NCBI RefSeq assembly: GCF_005403045.1
Contig: NZ_BJCL01000020.1
Coordinates: 1-64,000 of the forward strand
DNA: 64,000 bases
Direction: 5' to 3'
Origin: Pseudaquabacterium pictum
Lineage (GTDB): Bacteria; Pseudomonadota; Gammaproteobacteria; Burkholderiales; Burkholderiaceae_C
A program made the translations under genes and the position numbers. The notes under the pieces were generated by a model, which was given only the letters and a program-made list of their open reading frames with translations, did no database searches and was not told the DNA's origin. Numbering within the stretch: the first letter of the stretch is position 1; the number at the start of each line of letters is the position of its first letter. This document shows positions 18,785 through 29,909 of this stretch, piece after piece.

Positions 18785-21079
<2,295 letters not shown>

Positions 21080-21108: not shown

Positions 21109-21114
21109 ATTCTA
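21109..21114 (-). promoter_or_regulatory. -10 box (TAGAAT) of the malic enzyme gene
   Basis: The minus strand reads TAGAAT at 21114-21109, 30 bases ahead of the ATG at 21079. Confidence 0.5.
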
Positions 21115-21141
21115 GGAGTGTCGCGCCCGCGACGCGCCTGT

Positions 21142-21161
21142 CCATGCGCGAAACTGCGTAG
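21142..21161. promoter_or_regulatory. Dyad box A, CYAYGC-N8-GCGTAG, upstream of malic enzyme
   Basis: CCATGCGCGAAACTGCGTAG. It matches 18 of 20 bases of the box at 23754-23773 ahead of the two-component operon. The arms CCATGC and GCGTAG form an imperfect dyad, and the centre is about 40 bases from the -10 box, the usual distance for an activator at the -35 region. It lies outside coding sequence, between the maeB start and the sensor kinase stop. Confidence 0.6.
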
Positions 21162-21182
21162 CCCCCGAGGGGGTAACCGGCG

Positions 21183-22532
21183 TCAGGTCGCCAGGGTGAA
21201 TCCGACCCGCGTGGTGCCGCTGGCGCTTTCGGCCACGGTGCGGCCGGCATGCATGCGGGCGATCGCCGCCACGATGGCCAGGCCCAGGCCGTGGTGCTGG
21301 CCGTCCTCGCAGCAGCGGGCGCTGTCGACGCGGAAGAAGCGGTCGAACAGCCGCGGCAGGTGGTCGGCGGCAATCGCCTCGCCGCGGTTCTGCACCACCA
21401 CCTGCACCTGCTGCGGCTCGGGCGCCGGGGCGATGGCGATCACCACGGTGCTGCCCGGCTCGGCAAACCGGGTGGCGTTGCCCAGCAGGTTGGACAGCGC
21501 GCGCTTGACCAGCGGCTCGTCCACCGGCAGCGTGGCATCGCCTTCGATGCGCAGTGCCAGGCCGGCGTCTTCCAGCGTGGCCTCGTGGAACTCGCTGACC
21601 TGCGCCGCCAGCCCGGCCAGGCTGACCGGCGCGCCGCGCCGCGCCGTCACGCCGCGGTCGGCCTGCGACAGGAACAGCATGTCGTTGACCAGGGCCGACA
21701 GCCGCTGCATCTCTTCCAGGTTGGACTGCAGCGTTTCGCGCAGGGCCTGCGGGCTGCGCTCGCGCGACAGCGCCACCTCGGTCTCGCCGATCAGCGTGGC
21801 CAGCGGCGTGCGCAACTCATGGGCGACGTCGGCGTTGAAGGCCTCCAGCTGGCCATAGGCCTGCTGCAGCCGGTCCATCAGCGCGTTGAACTGCACGATC
21901 CAGGGCGACAGCTCCTCGGCCGGATCGGCCAGCGCCAGCCGCTGGTCCAGCTGGCGCGGCGAGATGGCACGGGTCTGAGCGGCCAGCAGGTTCAGCGGCT
22001 TGAGGCTGCGGCGCACGAACCAGGCGGAACCCAGCGCCACGACCACGCCGGCCATCAGCGTGACCACGCTGAGGATGATGGCCCAGCGCGCGCCGAGCTT
22101 GGCGCTGCTGGTGAAGTCCACCGAGTAGCGCGCGCGCAGCTGACCGCCGGGCAGGCCGGGAGCGTCGATGGCGAACTCGTGGGCGCGCACATGCTCGCTG
22201 GCCTGCATCGACGCCGGCGTGGCGTCTGCGTAGAACAGCTGGCCGTCCGGTCGCCACACTTCCAACCGGGTGCGGGCGCGCATCGGTGCGTCGGTGTGCA
22301 GGCGCTGCAGCACCGCGGTCTCGCCGCCGTTCTGCGCCTCCAGGCTCAGGATGTCGGCCAGCAGGTCGCAGCGCACGCCGAGGTCCTGCAGGTTGCGCTG
22401 CTTGACCATCATCGCCACCGAGAACCAGCTGGCGGAGGACACCATGCCGATGACGATGGCGGTGAAGATGGCGAGCTTCTTCGACAGCCGGTGGGCGATC
22501 GAGTGGCTGCAGAGCATCGTCGGGCAGCTCAT
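21183..22532 (-). CDS. Heavy-metal-type sensor histidine kinase (CusS/CopS-like)
   Basis: A 449-residue kinase: TM1 about residues 20-42 ([19 protein letters not shown]), a short periplasmic domain of about 110 residues, TM2 about 150-172 ([24 protein letters not shown]), HAMP, HisKA with [16 protein letters not shown] (His about 248), then HATPase ([27 protein letters not shown]). Its ATG overlaps the stop of the response regulator (ATGA). The family usually senses periplasmic copper, silver or other metals, but no efflux gene is adjacent; the divergent neighbour is a DUF4148 gene. Confidence 0.9.
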
Positions 22533-23215
22533 GGTGCACGGTCTTCCAGCACGTAGCCCATGCCGCGCACCGTGTGCAGCAGCTTGTGGGGGAAGGGGTC
22601 GTCCAGCTTGGCACGCAGGCGGCGCACGGCCACCTCGACGATGTTGGTGTCGGAGTCGAAGTTCATGTCCCACACCTGCTCGGCCAGCGTGGTGCGCGAC
22701 AGGATCTGCCCGCGCCGGCGCAGCAGCAGGGCCAGCAGCTTGAACTCCTTGGCGGTCAGGTCCAGCCGCTCGCTGCCGCGCTCGGCGCGGCGGCTCAGCA
22801 GGTCCAGCCGCAGGTCGGCCAGCTGCAGTTCGGTGGCCGGTGCGGCGCCGGCCTGCTGGCCGCGGCGCAACAGCGCACCCACGCGGGCCAGCAGCTCGCT
22901 GAAGGCGAAGGGCTTGACGAGGTAGTCGTCGGCGCCTTGCTCCAGGCCGCGCACACGGTCTTCGACCCGGTCGCGGGCGGTGAGCATCAGCACCGGCAGG
23001 CTGCGCTTCTCGGCGCGGATGGCCTGCAGCACACCGAAGCCGTCGACGCCAGGCAGCATCACGTCGAGCAGCACCAGGTCGTAGTCGCCGCCGGTGGCCA
23101 GGCGCCGGCCTTCGATGCCGTCGTGTGCCACGTCGACCACATGGCCGTTCTCGCCCAGGCCCTTGTGCAGGTACTGGGCGAGCTTCACCTCATCTTCGAT
23201 CACCAGGAGTCGCAT
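22529..23215 (-). CDS. OmpR/PhoB-type response regulator (CusR/CopR-like)
   Basis: A 228-residue regulator with REC domain ([20 protein letters not shown], phospho-acceptor Asp in [14 protein letters not shown], Lys in YLVKPFAF) and C-terminal winged helix ([39 protein letters not shown]). Start at 23215 gives the canonical MRLLVIEDE. It heads the operon with the kinase and is divergent from DUF4148 copy 3. A palindrome ATGAC-N6-GTCAT in the shared upstream region is the probable target. Confidence 0.92.
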
Positions 23216-23251
23216 CGGCCGTGATGGTGCCACCGCCGGCGCCGGTGGTGG

Positions 23252-23267
23252 ATGACGTTTTTGTCAT
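23252..23267. promoter_or_regulatory. Palindrome ATGACGTTTTTGTCAT, likely response-regulator box
   Basis: Perfect 5-bp arms (ATGAC/GTCAT) around six bases, 37 bases ahead of the response-regulator start and 130 bases ahead of DUF4148 copy 3. CusR/CopR-type regulators bind TGACA-TTGTCA-like dyads, so autoregulation and control of the divergent gene are plausible. Confidence 0.55.
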
Positions 23268-23396
23268 GTGGCTGTTCGGCGTGCGTCGGTTGCGCTCTTC
23301 AAACTTCGTTCCGTGGTCGGCGCTGTGACAGCACTGCAAGGCCACCAGCAACCGACCGGAACCATCCACGCCAACCCACCCTTGAAGGACACCACC

Positions 23397-23738
23397 ATGA
23401 ACGCCACCCAATCCCTGATCGCCGCCATCGCCCTGACCGCCGCTGCCGCCGGCTCGGCCTTCGCCCAGGAAGCCACGCCCGACAGCTGGCTGCAGGGCGT
23501 GCAGAGCACCAAGACCCGCGCCGAGGTCGGCGCCGAGCTGACCGCCGCCCGCCAGAGCGGCCTGACCAAGGCCTGGTCGGCCGGCTACATGGAGCCGGTG
23601 CGCAGCACCGCGCTGCGCGCCTCGGTGAAGGCCAGCACGCTGCAGGCCATCCAGTCTGGCGAACAGCGCGCGATCAACGCCGAGGTCTACAGCCACCTGC
23701 CGGCCGGTGCCGTGCTGGTGGGCCAGGCCGCCCGCTGA
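23397..23738 (+). CDS. DUF4148 periplasmic protein, copy 3
   Basis: A 113-residue protein: signal peptide MNATQSLIAAIALTAAAAGSAFA, then QEATPDSWLQ and the shared block AARQSGLTKAWSAGYMEPVR, ending INAEVYSHLPAGAV. It is divergent from a CusR-like two-component system, a recurrent setting for this family in Burkholderiales, and is likely regulated by it. The 45 bases at 23559-23603 are identical (inverted) to tracts in copies 1 and 2. Function unknown; periplasmic location is inferred from the signal peptide. Confidence 0.88.
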   Translation: MNATQSLIAAIALTAAAAGSAFAQEATPDSWLQGVQSTKTRAEVGAELTAARQSGLTKAWSAGYMEPVRSTALRASVKASTLQAIQSGEQRAINAEVYSHLPAGAVLVGQAAR

Positions 23739-23753
23739 TGGACCGAAGCCCGG

Positions 23754-23773
23754 CCATGCGCACAACTGCGTAG
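23754..23773. promoter_or_regulatory. Dyad box B, CYAYGC-N8-GCGTAG, upstream of the sensor kinase operon
   Basis: CCATGCGCACAACTGCGTAG, 18 of 20 bases identical to box A at 21142-21161. It is centred about 35 bases ahead of a possible -10 (AATACT, 23796-23801) and 48 bases ahead of the kinase ATG at 23812. Probable site for the FixJ/DctR-type regulator encoded in the same operon. Confidence 0.6.
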
Positions 23774-23811
23774 GCCGGGCCCGCTGCCGGCGGGAAATAC
23801 TGGCGGTCCTG

Positions 23812-25920
23812 ATGACCGCCGTTGCGCCGCCCGCCACCCCAGCATCCGCACCACCCCAGGACAGCCCCCGCTCGCGGCGGCTGTTGCTGTGGGTGGCGCT
23901 GGTCGTGCTGCTGGTGGTGGCGCAATCGCTGCTGGTGCTGCTGACGCTGCGCTACGAGCAGGCCCGCGCCCAGGAGCGCACCGACGACCAGGCCACCGCG
24001 GCGCAGGGCGAGATCCGCCGCCGCGCCCAGTTGGTGCTGCAGGGCCTGCAGGGCCTGCAGACACGCGAGGCCGATGCCCAGGCCTGGCAGCGCCATGCCG
24101 AGACGCTGCTGCGCAGCCAGCGCGAGATCGGCCGCATCGAGCGCCGCGACGCGCGGCTGCGCATCCTGGAAGCAGCTGACTCGCCGTTCCGCGAGCCGCT
24201 GTTCCAGCGCATGTCGCGTGCCGAGATGGCGCTGGAGGCCGAGGTGGCCTGCGGCATCGCCCGCCGGCTGGCCACGCCGGCGTTTTCGCGCAGCCAGTTC
24301 GTGCCGCTGCCCGGCGGCCTGGGCGCCGAGGTGGTGGATGTCTGCGTGCCGGTGCAGCAGGCCGGCGAGCTGGTCGGCTTCCATGTGGCCACGCTGCTGT
24401 TGTCACAGTGGCTGGACGAGGTGCGCGGCAGCGATGCCGGGCGCAGCCATGAGCTGAGCTTCATCGAAGGCGATGGCACCCGCCTGGCGCGCAGCGGCGC
24501 GGTGCGTGGCGCCGGCGTCTATGTGGCCGAGCGGGTGGTCGACCTGCCCGGCTCGCCGCTGCAGCTGCGGGTGGATGCGGCCGAGCGCGCGCCCAGCCTG
24601 ATCCCCAACCTCGCCACCGCCCTGGTGATGGGCCTGTCGATCGCGCTGTTCGCGGTGGTGCTGCTGCTGGTGCGCGACGGCCGCCGCCGCGCCGCCGCCG
24701 AGGAGGCGCTGGCCGAATCGCTGGGCTTCCGCAAGGCGATGGAGGATTCGCTGCTGACCGGCCTGCGCGCCCGCGATCGCCAGGGCCGCATCGTCTACGT
24801 CAACCCGGCGTTCTGCCGCATGGTCGGCTTCAGTGCCGACGAGCTGCAGCACGCCACGCTGCCGCCGTACTGGCCGCCCGAGCACGCGGCCGACTACCAG
24901 CGCCGCCAGGCCGAGCGCCAGGCCGCGGCCACCGACGAAGAGCAGCCGCACCAGGGCTACGAGACGGTGTTCATGCGCAAGGACGGCGAGCGCTTCCCGG
25001 TGATGATCTACGAGGCGCCGCTGGTCACCGGCACCGGCAAGCAGACCGGCTGGATGAGCGCGGTGCTCGACCTGTCGTCGCAGCGCCGGGTGGAAGACCT
25101 GTCGCGCCAGCAGCAGGAGCGGCTGCAGGCCACCGCCCGCCTGGCCAGCGTGGGCGAGATGGCCTCGCTGCTCAGCCATGAGCTGAACCAGCCGCTGTCG
25201 GCCATCGCCAGCTATGCCACCGGCTCGCTGAACCTGGTGCATGCGCCGGCGCTGCCGGGCCAGGACCCCGATCGGCCCGATCCCGACCTGCTGCCCTCGC
25301 TGCAGCATGCGCTGGAGCGCATCGCCGAGCAGGCCGAGCGTGCCGGCCGGGTGATCAAGAGCGTGCACGACTTCGTGCGCCGCCGCCACCAGGCCCATGA
25401 GGTGATCGCCGCAGACCTGCTGATCGAGTCGGTGCTGCCGCTGGTGCGGCTGCAGGCACGCAAGAGCGGCGCGCGGGTCGAGCTGGACATCGCACAGCCG
25501 GTGCCGCGGGTCAAGGTCGACCGCACGATGGTGGAGCAGGTGCTGCTGAACCTGGCGCGCAACGGCATCCAGGCGATGGAGGCCGACACGCCACTGGCCG
25601 AGCGGGTGCTGACGCTGCGCGTGCGGCTGGCGCCCGCGGCGGCTGGCACGCCGGGCCGCTGGGTGGTGTTCTCGGTGGTCGATGCCGGCCCCGGCATCCC
25701 GGCCGAGGTGGCGCAGCGGCTGTTCACCCCGTTCTTCACCACCAAGCCCGAGGGCATGGGCCTGGGCCTGTCGTTGTGCCGCACGGTGGTGGAGCAGCAT
25801 GGCGGTGCGATGGACTTCGAGAATCTGCCGCCGCGGCCAGGTGACGCCAGTGGCCGCGCCGGCGGCACCGGGTTCCGCTTCACCCTGCCGCAGCTGGTGG
25901 GCCGTCCACCGGCCGGCTGA
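23812..25920 (+). CDS. PAS-domain sensor histidine kinase, DctS-like
   Basis: A 702-residue membrane kinase: TM1 residues about 20-43 (RRLLLWVALVVLLVVAQSLL), a periplasmic domain of about 220 residues, TM2 about 262-285, a PAS domain from about 316 (DRQGRIVYVNPAFCRMVGFSADEL), HisKA with SLLSHELNQPLSAIASYATG (His about 456) and HATPase (NLARNGIQAME, GPGIPAEV, GMGLGLSLCRTVVEQHGG). ELNQPL and this layout are those of the DctS/FixL-type kinases that work with FixJ-like regulators; such a regulator follows. C4-dicarboxylate sensing is inferred from the layout and from the malic enzyme box, not shown directly. Confidence 0.9.
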   Translation: MTAVAPPATPASAPPQDSPRSRRLLLWVALVVLLVVAQSLLVLLTLRYEQARAQERTDDQATAAQGEIRRRAQLVLQGLQGLQTREADAQAWQRHAETLLRSQREIGRIERRDARLRILEAADSPFREPLFQRMSRAEMALEAEVACGIARRLATPAFSRSQFVPLPGGLGAEVVDVCVPVQQAGELVGFHVATLLLSQWLDEVRGSDAGRSHELSFIEGDGTRLARSGAVRGAGVYVAERVVDLPGSPLQLRVDAAERAPSLIPNLATALVMGLSIALFAVVLLLVRDGRRRAAAEEALAESLGFRKAMEDSLLTGLRARDRQGRIVYVNPAFCRMVGFSADELQHATLPPYWPPEHAADYQRRQAERQAAATDEEQPHQGYETVFMRKDGERFPVMIYEAPLVTGTGKQTGWMSAVLDLSSQRRVEDLSRQQQERLQATARLASVGEMASLLSHELNQPLSAIASYATGSLNLVHAPALPGQDPDRPDPDLLPSLQHALERIAEQAERAGRVIKSVHDFVRRRHQAHEVIAADLLIESVLPLVRLQARKSGARVELDIAQPVPRVKVDRTMVEQVLLNLARNGIQAMEADTPLAERVLTLRVRLAPAAAGTPGRWVVFSVVDAGPGIPAEVAQRLFTPFFTTKPEGMGLGLSLCRTVVEQHGGAMDFENLPPRPGDASGRAGGTGFRFTLPQLVGRPPAG

Positions 25921-25977: not shown

Positions 25978-26634
25978 ATGGCCTCCACAGCAGCACCGCC
26001 ATTGGGGATTCCGGTTGTCTACCTGGTCGACGACGAGTCGGTGGTCCGTGATGCCCTGGCCTGGCTGCTGCGCTCGCGCCGCCTGCTGTCCGAAGGATTC
26101 GGCCATGCCGAGGCCTTCGAGGCCTTCCTCGCCACCCGCGACCTGACGGCCTGGCCCGATGCCCCGTCCTGCCTGCTGCTGGATGTGCGCATGCCCGGCA
26201 CCAGCGGCCTGGTGCTGTTCGAGCGGCTGGTCGAGCGCGGGCTGACCACGGCGCTGCCGGTGATCTTCCTCACCGGCCATGGCGACGTGCCCACCGCGGT
26301 GGCCGCGGTCAAGCGCGGCGCCTTCGACTTCGTCGAGAAGCCGTTCTCCGACAACGCCCTGGTCGACCGGGTGGTGCAGGCGCTGGAGGTCAGCGGCCAG
26401 GCCATCGTCCGCCGGCGCGCGCGGCTGGCGGTGCAGCGCGCGCTGGCCGAGCTGACCGACCGCGAGCGCGAGGTGATGGAGCGGGTGGTCGCCGGCCTGG
26501 CCAACAAGCTGATCGCCGACGCGCTGGACATCAGCGTGCGCACGGTGGAGGTGCACCGTGCCCGCCTGTTCGAGAAGATGAACGTGCGTTCGGCGGTGGA
26601 ACTGGCCAATCTGCTGCGCGAGCAGGCGCCGTGA
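25978..26634 (+). CDS. FixJ/DctR-family response regulator
   Basis: A 218-residue regulator: REC domain (VVYLVDDESVVRDALAWLLRS, acceptor Asp in CLLLDVRMPGTSGL, FLTGHGDVPTAVAAVKRGAFDFVEKPF) and LuxR-type helix-turn-helix (LTDREREVMERVVAGLANKLIADALDISVRTVEVHRA). The GHGDVP.AV motif is characteristic of FixJ. It follows the kinase by 57 bases, and its stop overlaps the ATG of the hybrid kinase gene. It is the natural candidate to bind the two shared dyads at 21142 and 23754. Confidence 0.93.
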   Translation: MASTAAPPLGIPVVYLVDDESVVRDALAWLLRSRRLLSEGFGHAEAFEAFLATRDLTAWPDAPSCLLLDVRMPGTSGLVLFERLVERGLTTALPVIFLTGHGDVPTAVAAVKRGAFDFVEKPFSDNALVDRVVQALEVSGQAIVRRRARLAVQRALAELTDREREVMERVVAGLANKLIADALDISVRTVEVHRARLFEKMNVRSAVELANLLREQAP

Positions 26635-29600
26635 TGCGCAGGGCAGTCGGGGCGCTGCTGGCGGCCTGGCTGCTGTGGATGTGCGCAGCGGCTGCCCTCG
26701 CGCAGGCGGCCGGCGGGCCCTACCGCTTCCGCCAGGCGCCGCAGCCGGGCATCGTCACCCCGGCCTCCGACCTGCTCGATGCCAAGGAGCAGGCCTTCCT
26801 GGCCAGCCTGCCGCCGCTGCGCGTGGGCCTGAACCTGCCGGACAACCGGCCCTACGAGGTGATCGCCGACAACGGCGAGATCTCCGGCATCCAGGTGGAG
26901 ATCCTCACCCGGCTGGCGCAATCCCTGGGCCTGCGGCTGGAGCCGGTGGTGCTGCCCGACTTCCCCAGCACCCTGGCCGCGCTGCGCGAGCGCCGCATCG
27001 ACCTGATGACCACCGTGGGCTACGAGCCCGCGCGCGAGGCCTACATGGCCTACACCCTCGGCACCGCCCCCAATCCCGGCGCCCTGATCGGCCGCCAGGC
27101 CGACAACCGGCTCAGCACCGAGCCCTCGCTCAATGGCCGGCGGGTGGCCATCGAGCGCGGCTATGTCACCCGCTACTACCTGCAGCGGCTCTACCCCGAC
27201 GCGCTGATCACCGAGCACCCCGACACCGCCGAGGCCCTGCGCGCGGTGGCCCTGGGCGAGGACGACTACTACTTCGGCAGCCTGCTGATGGCGCTGGACC
27301 GGCTGCAGCGCGAGGGCATCGGCGGCCTCGGCGTCAAGCGGTCGATCGTCTATGCCACCGGGCAGATGCACTTCGGCGTGCGCAGCGACTGGCCGCTGCT
27401 GGCCAGCGCACTGAGCAAGGGCGTGGCGGCGATGCGGCCGTCGCCGATGCCGTCGCTGCAGGCGGCCCTCAGCAACCTGGGCCAGCAGGCCGGCAACGTG
27501 CCGCGCTTGCTGCCCTTGCCGCCAGAGGAGCAGGCCCAGCTCGCCGGCCGCAGCGTGCTGCGGGTGGGCGCGGTGCGCGGCCTCACCCTGCTGAACGAGG
27601 CCACGGCCAGCGGCGGCCATGCCGGCATCGCCGCCGACTACACCGCCGAGGTCGCCGCCCGCCTGGGCACGGCGATCGACGTCGTGCCCTTCGACAGCGT
27701 GGCCGACATGCTGGACGCGCTGCGCGCCGGCCGCATCCACCTGGTGCCCTTCCTCACCCGCACGCCGGCGCGGGCGCGCGAATTCAGCTTCTCCGACCCC
27801 TACCTGGAGATGCCCTACCAGATCGTCGCCCGCAGCGACGCACCGCTGTACTGGGACCTGAACAGCCTGCGCGGCAAGCGGCTGGCGCTGGCCGCCCAGC
27901 ACCCGCTGCGCGACCTGCTGGCCGAGCGCTATGCCGACATCCGCATCGTCGACGCGCCCTCCGGCCAGGCCGCGATGGACATGGTGGCCGCCGGTGATGC
28001 CGATGCCGCGGTCGAGGCCAAGCTGTACGCCAACCTGCGCATCCACAGCGACAACAACGGCGTGCTGCGCCAGGTGGCACGGGTCGACGAGCTGCCGGCG
28101 CAGTTCCACTTCGCCACCTCGGTGGCGTCGGCGGCGCTGGTGCCGCTGATCAACCGCGCGCTGGCCGACATTCCGCCGGCCGAGCGCGAGCGCATGATGC
28201 GCCGCTGGGTGGCGGTGGACGTGGTGCCCGGCTTCCCCTGGCGGCGCTGGCTGCCGCTGATGGTGACCGCCGGCGTGGCCCTGCTGCTGCTGGCCGCCGC
28301 CAGCGCCTGGTGGATGCGCCGGCTGTCGAAGGAGGTGGCCCAGCGCCGCCAGGCCGAGCAGCGCCTGCTGGCGGTGGCCAACAGCCTGCCCGGCGTGGTG
28401 TTCCAGTACATCGCCAGTGCCGACGGCAAGCTGCTGCAGCGCTATGTCAGCGACGCGGTCGACACCTTCCTGGGCCCCGGCCTGCGCGACGTGCCCAGCC
28501 TGTTCGAGGCGGTGGCCCTGCGCGCCCCGGCGCCGCAGGCCGCCCGGCTGCGCGCGGCGCGGGCCGAATGCCTGGCCACCCGCCAGCCATTCAAGCAGAC
28601 GGCGCACTACAACCACCCGCTGCACGGCCCGCGCTGGCTGCACTGCGAGGCGGTGGCCCGCACGCTGGAGGGCGGCCGCATCGCCTGGACCGGCTATGTG
28701 GTCGATGTGTCGAGTGAGCGGGCGCTGCAGGCCGAGCTGGTGGATGCGGTGCAGGCCAAGAACCTGTTCGTCGCCAGCGCCAGCCATGAGCTGCGCGCGC
28801 CGCTGCAGGCCATCACCCTGGCACTGGCGCGACTGGGCCAGGGCCCGCTGGACGAGGCCCAGCGCCTGCTGTGGCAGATGGCGCAGCAGGCCTCGGGCAC
28901 CCTGGTGCAGCTGATCGACGACGTGCTCGACCTGGCCCACTATGAATCGGGCCGGCTCACGCTGCAGCCCGCCAGCGTGGCGCTGGTGCCGCTGCTGCAG
29001 CAGATCGTCGAGCCGCACCGGCTGGCGGCCCAGGCCCGCGGCCTGGTGCTGCAGCTGCAGCTGTCGCCCGCGCTGCCGGCCCAGGCCAGTGTGGACGCGC
29101 TGCGGCTGCGCCAGCTGCTGGCCAACCTGGTCGGCAATGCGGTGAAGTACACCCCGGCCGGCCAGGTGCTGGTCAGCGCGGTGCTGGACGGCGAGACCGT
29201 GGCCGACGCGCCCGACGCCGCCACCCCGGTGGCCAACGGCTGGCTGCGGCTGACGGTGCGGGACACCGGCGTGGGCATCGCGCCCGAGCGGCAGCCGCTG
29301 CTGTTCACCCCGTTCAGCAGCGCCCAGGGTCTGGCCAGCCTGCCCGCCGGCGAGCGCAGCCACGGCCTGGGCCTGGCCATCTGCAAGCGCCTGGCCGAGG
29401 CGATGCAGGGCGAGATCAGCCTGCGCAGCCAGCCCGGCCAGGGCACCGAGGTGGTGGTGCGCCTGCCCCTGCTGACCGCGGCCACCACCGCGCCCGAAGC
29501 ACTGCCGCTGCCCGCTGCCGGCGGGACCGCCGACCTGGTGCTGCTGGTGGACGACGATGCGCTGTCGCGCCTCCTGCTGGCCGAGCTGCTGCGCTCGGCC

Positions 29601-29909
29601 GGTTACCGGGTGACCGAGGCGGCCGATGCGGCCGAAGCGCTGGCACAGTGGCGCGGCCAGCCGGTGGCCGCAGTGATCAGCGACCGCCACATGCCGGGCG
29701 ACGATGGGCCCACGTTGCTGCAACGCATCACCGACGAGGCCCGCGCCGCCGGCCGGCCGCCGCCGGGCCGCATCCTGTGCACCGGCCACCCGGGTGATGC
29801 CGCCGCGCTGGGCGTCGACCTGGTGCTGGAGAAGCCGGTCACGCTGGCCGCACTGCACCGGGCGCTGCTGGCCGCCGGCGTGCACCCGGCGGCCCCGGTC
29901 AGCGCCTGA
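26634..29909 (+). CDS. BvgS-like hybrid sensor kinase with tandem solute-binding domains
   Basis: A 1091-residue protein: signal peptide, two periplasmic SBP_bac_3 (Venus-flytrap) domains (about residues 60-285 and 300-520), TM about 538-560 (LPLMVTAGVALLLLAAASAWWM), PAS-like segment, HisKA with FVASASHELRAPLQAITLAL (His about 718), HATPase (NLVGNAVKYTPAG, HGLGLAICKRLAEAM) and a C-terminal REC domain (LVLLVDDDALSRLLL, acceptor in VISDRHMPGDDG). BvgS has a further HPt domain; none is visible here, so phosphorelay would need another protein. ATG overlaps the FixJ-like regulator stop (ATGA), so three signalling proteins share a transcript. Confidence 0.9.
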   Translation: MRRAVGALLAAWLLWMCAAAALAQAAGGPYRFRQAPQPGIVTPASDLLDAKEQAFLASLPPLRVGLNLPDNRPYEVIADNGEISGIQVEILTRLAQSLGLRLEPVVLPDFPSTLAALRERRIDLMTTVGYEPAREAYMAYTLGTAPNPGALIGRQADNRLSTEPSLNGRRVAIERGYVTRYYLQRLYPDALITEHPDTAEALRAVALGEDDYYFGSLLMALDRLQREGIGGLGVKRSIVYATGQMHFGVRSDWPLLASALSKGVAAMRPSPMPSLQAALSNLGQQAGNVPRLLPLPPEEQAQLAGRSVLRVGAVRGLTLLNEATASGGHAGIAADYTAEVAARLGTAIDVVPFDSVADMLDALRAGRIHLVPFLTRTPARAREFSFSDPYLEMPYQIVARSDAPLYWDLNSLRGKRLALAAQHPLRDLLAERYADIRIVDAPSGQAAMDMVAAGDADAAVEAKLYANLRIHSDNNGVLRQVARVDELPAQFHFATSVASAALVPLINRALADIPPAERERMMRRWVAVDVVPGFPWRRWLPLMVTAGVALLLLAAASAWWMRRLSKEVAQRRQAEQRLLAVANSLPGVVFQYIASADGKLLQRYVSDAVDTFLGPGLRDVPSLFEAVALRAPAPQAARLRAARAECLATRQPFKQTAHYNHPLHGPRWLHCEAVARTLEGGRIAWTGYVVDVSSERALQAELVDAVQAKNLFVASASHELRAPLQAITLALARLGQGPLDEAQRLLWQMAQQASGTLVQLIDDVLDLAHYESGRLTLQPASVALVPLLQQIVEPHRLAAQARGLVLQLQLSPALPAQASVDALRLRQLLANLVGNAVKYTPAGQVLVSAVLDGETVADAPDAATPVANGWLRLTVRDTGVGIAPERQPLLFTPFSSAQGLASLPAGERSHGLGLAICKRLAEAMQGEISLRSQPGQGTEVVVRLPLLTAATTAPEALPLPAAGGTADLVLLVDDDALSRLLLAELLRSAGYRVTEAADAAEALAQWRGQPVAAVISDRHMPGDDGPTLLQRITDEARAAGRPPPGRILCTGHPGDAAALGVDLVLEKPVTLAALHRALLAAGVHPAAPVSA

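Follow-up and report, generated by a model that had tools for sequence, protein, structure and literature searches.

In Lactobacillales (MaeKR/maePE), the genes of a two-component system are divergent from malic-enzyme genes. According to the accessible part of PMC5457438, the response regulator MaeR binds the intergenic region and activates both divergent operons; it has a winged-helix output domain, and three direct repeats are bound. The DctS/DctR system of Rhodobacter capsulatus consists of a kinase and a FixJ-type regulator (accessible part of PMC4268860), and AccR, the regulator of another pair, is described as a repressor in the available text of PMC6456745; the portion of PMC6678401 at hand gave no binding site for AccR. 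EmbRS of Rubrivivax was considered as a counterpart of the pair described here and set aside, being a different system with a ten-TM kinase (available portion of PMC3684757). A literature search returned no study of this maeB-linked pair among the matches listed.

The locus was analysed in a window of 64,000 nucleotides, that is, the whole stretch of Pseudaquabacterium pictum DNA under study. It contains two nearly identical dyads, one next to the malic enzyme gene maeB and one next to the gene of a DctS-like sensor kinase. We predict, with a probability of roughly 0.72, that they are separated descendants of one bidirectional operator of maeB and of the kinase-regulator operon.

Genes and candidate sites in the window

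The relevant features are the following, in order of position.

18785..21079, minus strand: maeB, NADP-dependent malic enzyme with a C-terminal PTA-like domain (NCBIfam NF009501, PRK12861, 1300.8 bits, cut-off 1178)
21109..21114, minus strand: TAGAAT, second -10-like hexamer of maeB, with a putative function deduced from sequence
21117..21122, minus strand: GACACT, -10-like hexamer of maeB, starting 22 nt from the copy 1 core (near edge)
21142-21161 (core 21145-21160), maeB side, between copS and maeB: candidate operator copy 1, CCATGCGCGAAACTGCGTAG (PWM 34.5 bits)
21183..22532, minus strand: copS-like heavy-metal sensor kinase (TIGR01386, 333.2 bits, cut-off 292.55)
22529..23215, minus strand: copR-like heavy-metal response regulator (TIGR01387, 316.4 bits, cut-off 279.2)
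23397..23738, plus strand: gene of a small DUF4148 protein (PF13663)
23748..23780, plus strand: stem-loop enclosing copy 2, just 3' of the DUF4148 stop codon (-27.7 kcal/mol, shuffle z -4.5)
23754-23773 (core 23757-23772), kinase side, between DUF4148 and kinase genes: candidate operator copy 2, CCATGCGCACAACTGCGTAG (PWM 23.1 bits)
23796..23801, plus strand: AATACT, -10-like hexamer of the kinase-regulator operon, starting 23 nt from the copy 2 core (near edge)
23812..25920, plus strand: DctS-like sensor kinase, HK (Pfam PAS, HisKA, HATPase)
25978..26634, plus strand: FixJ-type response regulator, RR, with receiver and GerE/LuxR HTH (Pfam/NCBIfam)
26631..29909, plus strand: BvgS-like hybrid sensor kinase carrying SBP_bac_3 domains (Pfam), its gene overlapping that of the RR

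The maeB product, proposed as the target of copy 1, also matched the Pfam families malic, Malic_M and PTA_PTB. The kinase N-terminus is a tandem-PDC sensor between long helices (AF2 model with pLDDT 88.4, fold match), and the RR scored 186.2 bits with the NCBIfam FixJ model, below its cut-off of 255. On these domain features the pair can be called DctS/DctR-like, with putative C4-dicarboxylate sensing. The copS, copR and DUF4148 genes form the block that separates the two copies of the dyad in the window. An inverted repeat, ATGACGTTTTTGTCAT, lies between copR and the DUF4148 gene (23252-23267, expected 0.01) and is, from its resemblance, possibly a site of a CopR-type regulator. The hybrid kinase appears to be an optional third gene, a homologue being found 3' of the RR gene at just two of the 20 further loci examined. 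In the window it stands between the RR gene and a thiL-like gene; the genes downstream were labelled thiL- and pgpA-like by eye.

Distribution of the dyad within the genome

The first-pass annotation had reported the pair as matching at 18 of 20 positions in non-coding DNA. The sequence bears this out for CCATGCGCGAAACTGCGTAG and CCATGCGCACAACTGCGTAG: both are present, alike at 18/20 positions and intergenic. In the window, only these two places were found at up to three mismatches (shuffle mean 0.12, with none of 100 shuffles reaching two), and in the 6.14-Mb genome these two, both exact matches to the pattern, were the sole places at up to two mismatches. At three mismatches four further places appeared, which is the level of the control (four with the reversed pattern).

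The looser dyad under which the pair had been announced, CYAYGC-N8-GCGTAG, proved uninformative: its nine places compare with seven for the control, so that it carries no weight by itself. The information sits in a longer core, TRCGC-NNAACT-GCGYA, found in the own genome at nine places at up to one mismatch versus three for the control, two of the nine being copies 1 and 2. An exact core match (C1:568793) lies 3' of a metC-like gene, as read by eye, within a longer palindrome, and was judged a probable terminator hairpin. The six remaining matches were within long open frames and were not taken as sites; a coding signature was clear for some of them (L161, L163, L166) and weaker elsewhere, L166 being located inside the window's own hybrid kinase gene. 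No further convincing site was found in the whole genome by these core and dyad scans.

Conservation among relatives

Sixty genomes, including that of P. pictum, were scanned for the strict dyad (at most one mismatch), with the reversed pattern as control. It was found in 18 of them, including 16 of 20 congeners and one genome of another genus; the control pattern was found in one genome. All 22 strict-dyad places in this set adjoined maeB, the HK gene or both. At 13 of the 22 (12 congeners and G025), a single dyad stood between divergent maeB and kinase genes with no copRS match, a gene being counted as absent from a relative's locus when tblastn, at its set thresholds, gave no match in the stretch examined. 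Four of the 20 congeners were without the strict dyad, three of these genomes being 95-98% complete. A family sample of 250 genomes gave 25 strict-dyad places in 23 genomes and one place for the reversed control. The maeB/HK locus accounted for 20 of the 25 places and 19 of the 23 genomes (own included), and five places (L033, L049, L052, L054, L055) were away from it. At L055, from another genus, a near-dyad, TATGCGCAAAACTGCGTAG (1501-1519), lies just 5' of an OmpR-type regulator gene.

The sensor part of the kinase was also used to search named genomes, and the best 80 of 182 loci were taken, belonging to Aquabacterium, Ideonella, Rubrivivax, Leptothrix, Rhizobacter, Piscinibacter, Caldimonas, Roseateles, Mitsuaria, Paucibacter and others. 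The maeB gene was divergent from the HK gene in 77 of these best 80 of 182; 75 loci were unsplit, two had copRS genes in between, and the remaining three of the 80 were cut by a contig end. Among the 75 unsplit loci (from the best 80 of 182), which are related to each other so that their counts are non-independent events, the core was found with 0 mismatches in 56, 1 in 6, 2 in 7, 3 in 3 and 5 in 3. It was thus present at up to one mismatch in 62/75, a partly circular figure because the core consensus had been widened after Roseateles-type variants had been seen, and at three or more mismatches in 6/75. With the window's own 20-mer pattern instead, 38 of the 75 unsplit loci (from the best 80 of 182) were found at up to two mismatches. 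Conservation fades 2-3 bases beyond the core, with 0.55 bits at +16, 1.13 at +17 and 0.02-0.42 at +18 to +21.

The two half-sites were always unlike and no perfect palindrome occurred: 42 of the 62 loci (from the best 80 of 182) have TGCGC..GCGTA and the other 20 have TACGC..GCGCA. The inner AACT keeps one orientation in both half-site types (dyads of L078-L157). All 20 loci of the second type fall in one clade of 23 entries of Roseateles/Mitsuaria/Paucibacter type and may therefore represent a single switch. Since relatives usually hold one site between maeB and the HK gene, the two sites of the window can be regarded as the two-copy form of one site.

Promoter layout and proposed mechanism

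Copy 1 is indeed next to maeB and copy 2 next to the kinase gene, as had been claimed. The -10 elements lie on opposite sides of the two copies: that of copy 1 towards maeB (minus strand), that of copy 2 towards the kinase gene (plus strand). Neither copy has a -10 element on its far side. The distance of 35-40 nt to the -10 element given earlier holds roughly if the far end of the 20-mer is taken as origin (about 39 and 42 nt), but from the edge of the core it becomes 22 and 23 nt. In the 62 distinct unsplit loci (from the best 80 of 182), a -10-like.A[TC]ACT was located 22-23 nt from the core on the kinase side in 61 and on the maeB side in 41, the strict element being absent at this distance on the maeB side in the other 21. 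The maeB-side TA[GC]AAT of unsplit loci (from the best 80 of 182) occurred at scattered offsets, 21-41 from the dyad, and is possibly a second, dyad-independent promoter. The AATACT element is only 10 nt from the kinase ATG (23796-23812 in the window), and several relatives look alike; owing to this short gap the HK mRNA should be nearly leaderless.

Our reading starts from what is directly observed: the positions, conservation, spacing and synteny of the dyads, their doubling, and one -10 element for each split copy. The ancestral state, as seen in many relatives, was probably one imperfect palindrome, TRCGC-NNAACT-GCGYA, between divergent maeB and HK-RR genes. With the usual distance between -10 element and start point, the palindrome would have its centre about 43 bp before the probable start on either side (near -43). 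From there, a single dimer of the FixJ-type RR overlapping the two -35 regions could govern transcription in both directions; the proposed targets would be the regulator's operon itself and the malic enzyme gene. In the lineage of the window, a copS-copR-DUF4148 block would have come to lie inside this region, with the operator on both sides and each copy serving one promoter. Control is presumably positive, by the phosphorylated RR.

The RR could instead be a repressor, the dyad over both -35 regions blocking polymerase until a signal arrives. The dyad does overlap both would-be -35 hexamers, and a consensus promoter scan found no -35 hexamer there; however, this absence, together with a centre near -43, fits an activator-dependent promoter, and FixJ itself is an activator. 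Described regulators point both ways: AccR, from a related kind of pair, represses (accessible text of PMC6456745), whereas MaeR acts as an activator on its two divergent operons (accessible text of PMC5457438). On balance repression seems unlikely, and the bidirectional operator is taken here as a probable site of activation.

Proposed assignment of the regulator

The HK gene was detected in all 23 strict-dyad genomes of the family sample, compared with 176 of its 250 genomes overall. Twenty distant loci were hand-picked among the matches listed, favouring lower identity and avoiding contig ends. In 17 of them the pair was not linked to maeB and the best dyad score was at most 7.7 bits; the three maeB-linked loci gave 22.6 bits, 10.8 bits and, in the third (L188), no dyad. 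In these distant family members (L187-L206) there is often a co-oriented upstream gene, nitrilase-like at its end as judged by eye, directly after which the kinase gene begins, with neither maeB nor dyad. Among other regulators of the own genome, one was found at E <= 1e-20, 46% identical to the RR. As the dyad goes with the pair when the latter is divergent from maeB, and with the kinase in 23/23 genomes, autoregulation plus one metabolic target is the simplest reading: the HK-RR system is probably autoregulated, and its RR (25978-26634) is predicted to bind both dyads.

Another conserved regulator, for example a global carbon regulator, might read the dyad while the pair adjoins it by chance. 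This would agree with the 17 of 20 chosen distant loci at which the pair is away from maeB and without dyad, and the choice of the RR as binder is itself deduced from context. Yet a global regulator should have many sites and the genome shows two strong ones only, and the presence of the kinase in 23/23 strict-dyad genomes, compared with 176/250, also speaks for the adjoining pair. We consider such a foreign reader quite unlikely and retain the RR.

The link between maeB and the HK-RR operon asserted in the first-pass annotation thus survives in kind, as one site shared by both in relatives, but the wider C4-dicarboxylate regulon that it implied does not. The own genome gave no match to the PF00375 (DctA) profile, and no dyad was found at any of its 16 DctP loci, scanned to about 1.5 kb either side of the match (best score 2.6 bits, versus 34.5 and 23.1 for the window sites); nor was the HK-RR pair found within about 1.5 kb of these loci. 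Malate, pyruvate or another small organic acid may be the signal.

In Burkholderia multivorans (L183, the top-ranked record of the plasmid collection), a homologous pair is divergent from dctP and dctM genes of the TRAP type, with HK and RR 37% and 53% identical. In this one record, TIGR00787 (dctP) and TIGR00786 (dctM) scored over their cut-offs, the small permease was only weakly matched, and the substrate of the TRAP transporter is putative. The Burkholderia and Variovorax records are unannotated at the homologous pairs. A PWM hit of 25.5 bits at L183 lies inside the dctP coding sequence, the dctP-HK intergenic region being without dyad, and was taken as chance; since it exceeds copy 2 of the window (23.1 bits), a matrix score alone is no proof of a site.

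Split loci and doubling of the site

Only in three cases, the window, G020 (also L081) and G006 (also L078), was one contig found to carry both dyads with cop genes between them. G010 has the kinase-side copy beside copRS and the maeB-side copy on another contig without copS match, and G002 (also L082) and L079 showed the kinase-side dyad only; the pairings G020/L081, G006/L078 and G002/L082 were deduced, in part from zero tree distance. The cargo varies: G006 (L025/L032) retains only two copS pieces and no copR match, with both dyads still present, and G002 has no DUF4148 match, with the dyad retained. All four maeB-side and all five kinase-side split copies tested have a -10 element on their own side only; L080, an unsplit sister, has one on both sides of its dyad.

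The nine tested split copies match the core with at most one mismatch. They are alike by side across genomes (GCG[GA]A on the maeB side, GCA[CG]A on the kinase side) and not within a genome, which fits one early doubling. The second dyad could also have arisen independently rather than by duplication of the first, and no likeness between the copies beyond the dyad was evident by eye; the close core matches of the nine copies and their side-wise likeness render this very improbable. We therefore keep to duplication of a single bidirectional operator, its copies now lying on either side of copRS-DUF4148, which the first-pass annotation had missed.

How often the split occurred depends on the tree considered. 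In the HK tree (a quick tree), the split form needs two changes because the unsplit L080/L026 fall within the split clade. The RR tree, with three split entries, also needs two, no bootstrap tree having one; for the maeB tree one change suffices, with weak support. One gain plus one loss (e.g. by recombination between direct repeats) may account for the split form, as may two gains, and how the doubling came about is conjectural.

A hairpin around the second copy

Kinase-side copies with DUF4148 just upstream (the window and three other split lineages) are enclosed by GC-rich arms. Folding of 40-nt windows gave -27.7 kcal/mol for the window of this study, -34.8 for L015/L081, -24.4 for L021/L079 and -25.7 for L025/L078, with shuffle z of -5.0 for L015 and -2.9 for L021. 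For 61 unsplit loci the mean was -13.8 kcal/mol (sd 3.7), one of them (L126, -25.2) falling in the hairpin range; a kinase-side copy without DUF4148 gave -18.0 and maeB-side copies -9.8 to -14.7 kcal/mol. Copy 1 showed no unusual hairpin (z 0.17 and -0.86), and a terminator scan that asks for a T run reported neither dyad.

The hairpin of copy 2 may end or protect the DUF4148 transcript. Copy 2 might even be a dual element, a DNA site for the HK-RR promoter and at the same time the loop end of an RNA hairpin closing the DUF4148 transcript, with the RR as a possible roadblock. We consider this decidedly unlikely; if true, a single 20-bp element would serve both the inserted block and the host operon, in two roles. 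That the dyads are terminators or 3' hairpins of the copS and DUF4148 genes instead of operators is hardly credible: both copies do lie directly 3' of stop codons (copy 1 of copS, copy 2 of DUF4148) and copy 2 is within a strong hairpin, but the dyad is conserved between two gene starts in unsplit relatives, copy 1 has no unusual hairpin, the T-run scan reports neither copy and the fixed 22-23 nt to the -10 element would be left unexplained.

Comparison with known systems

The original observation is real; a better description of it is a probable bidirectional operator, conserved among relatives, which serves malic enzyme and a DctSR-like system and has been divided by an insertion. The locus would then be a natural case of a divergent co-regulated pair that persists after other genes have landed between its halves, and would show how such persistence looks, with the shared operator on both sides and one promoter per copy. 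For a two-component system that many Sphaerotilaceae have in common, it further yields predictions of binding site, targets and promoter layout.

Like DctS/DctR, the pair of the window combines, in one operon, a kinase with an N-terminal sensor and PAS and a FixJ-type RR, but it adjoins maeB and copRS, not dctPQM or dctA. AccSR/BphPQ, likewise a kinase-regulator pair of beta-proteobacteria, is also linked to central carbon genes (accessible part of PMC6456745); the pair of the window differs in adjoining maeB, copRS and a hybrid kinase gene, not the pyruvate dehydrogenase genes aceEF. A homologous pair of Diaphorobacter, divergent from aceEF and taken as of AccSR/BphPQ type, is 34% (HK segments) and 42% (RR) identical to that of the window and has no dyad of the window type. 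Compared with MaeKR, no maeP-like neighbour was noted at the window locus, and the RR has a GerE/LuxR HTH and one imperfect palindrome, whereas MaeR, in the available text of PMC5457438, has a winged helix and direct repeats. MaeKR is nevertheless alike in arrangement, with HK-RR genes divergent from a malic-enzyme gene, the two directly adjoining in 75 of the 80 named loci (best 80 of 182).
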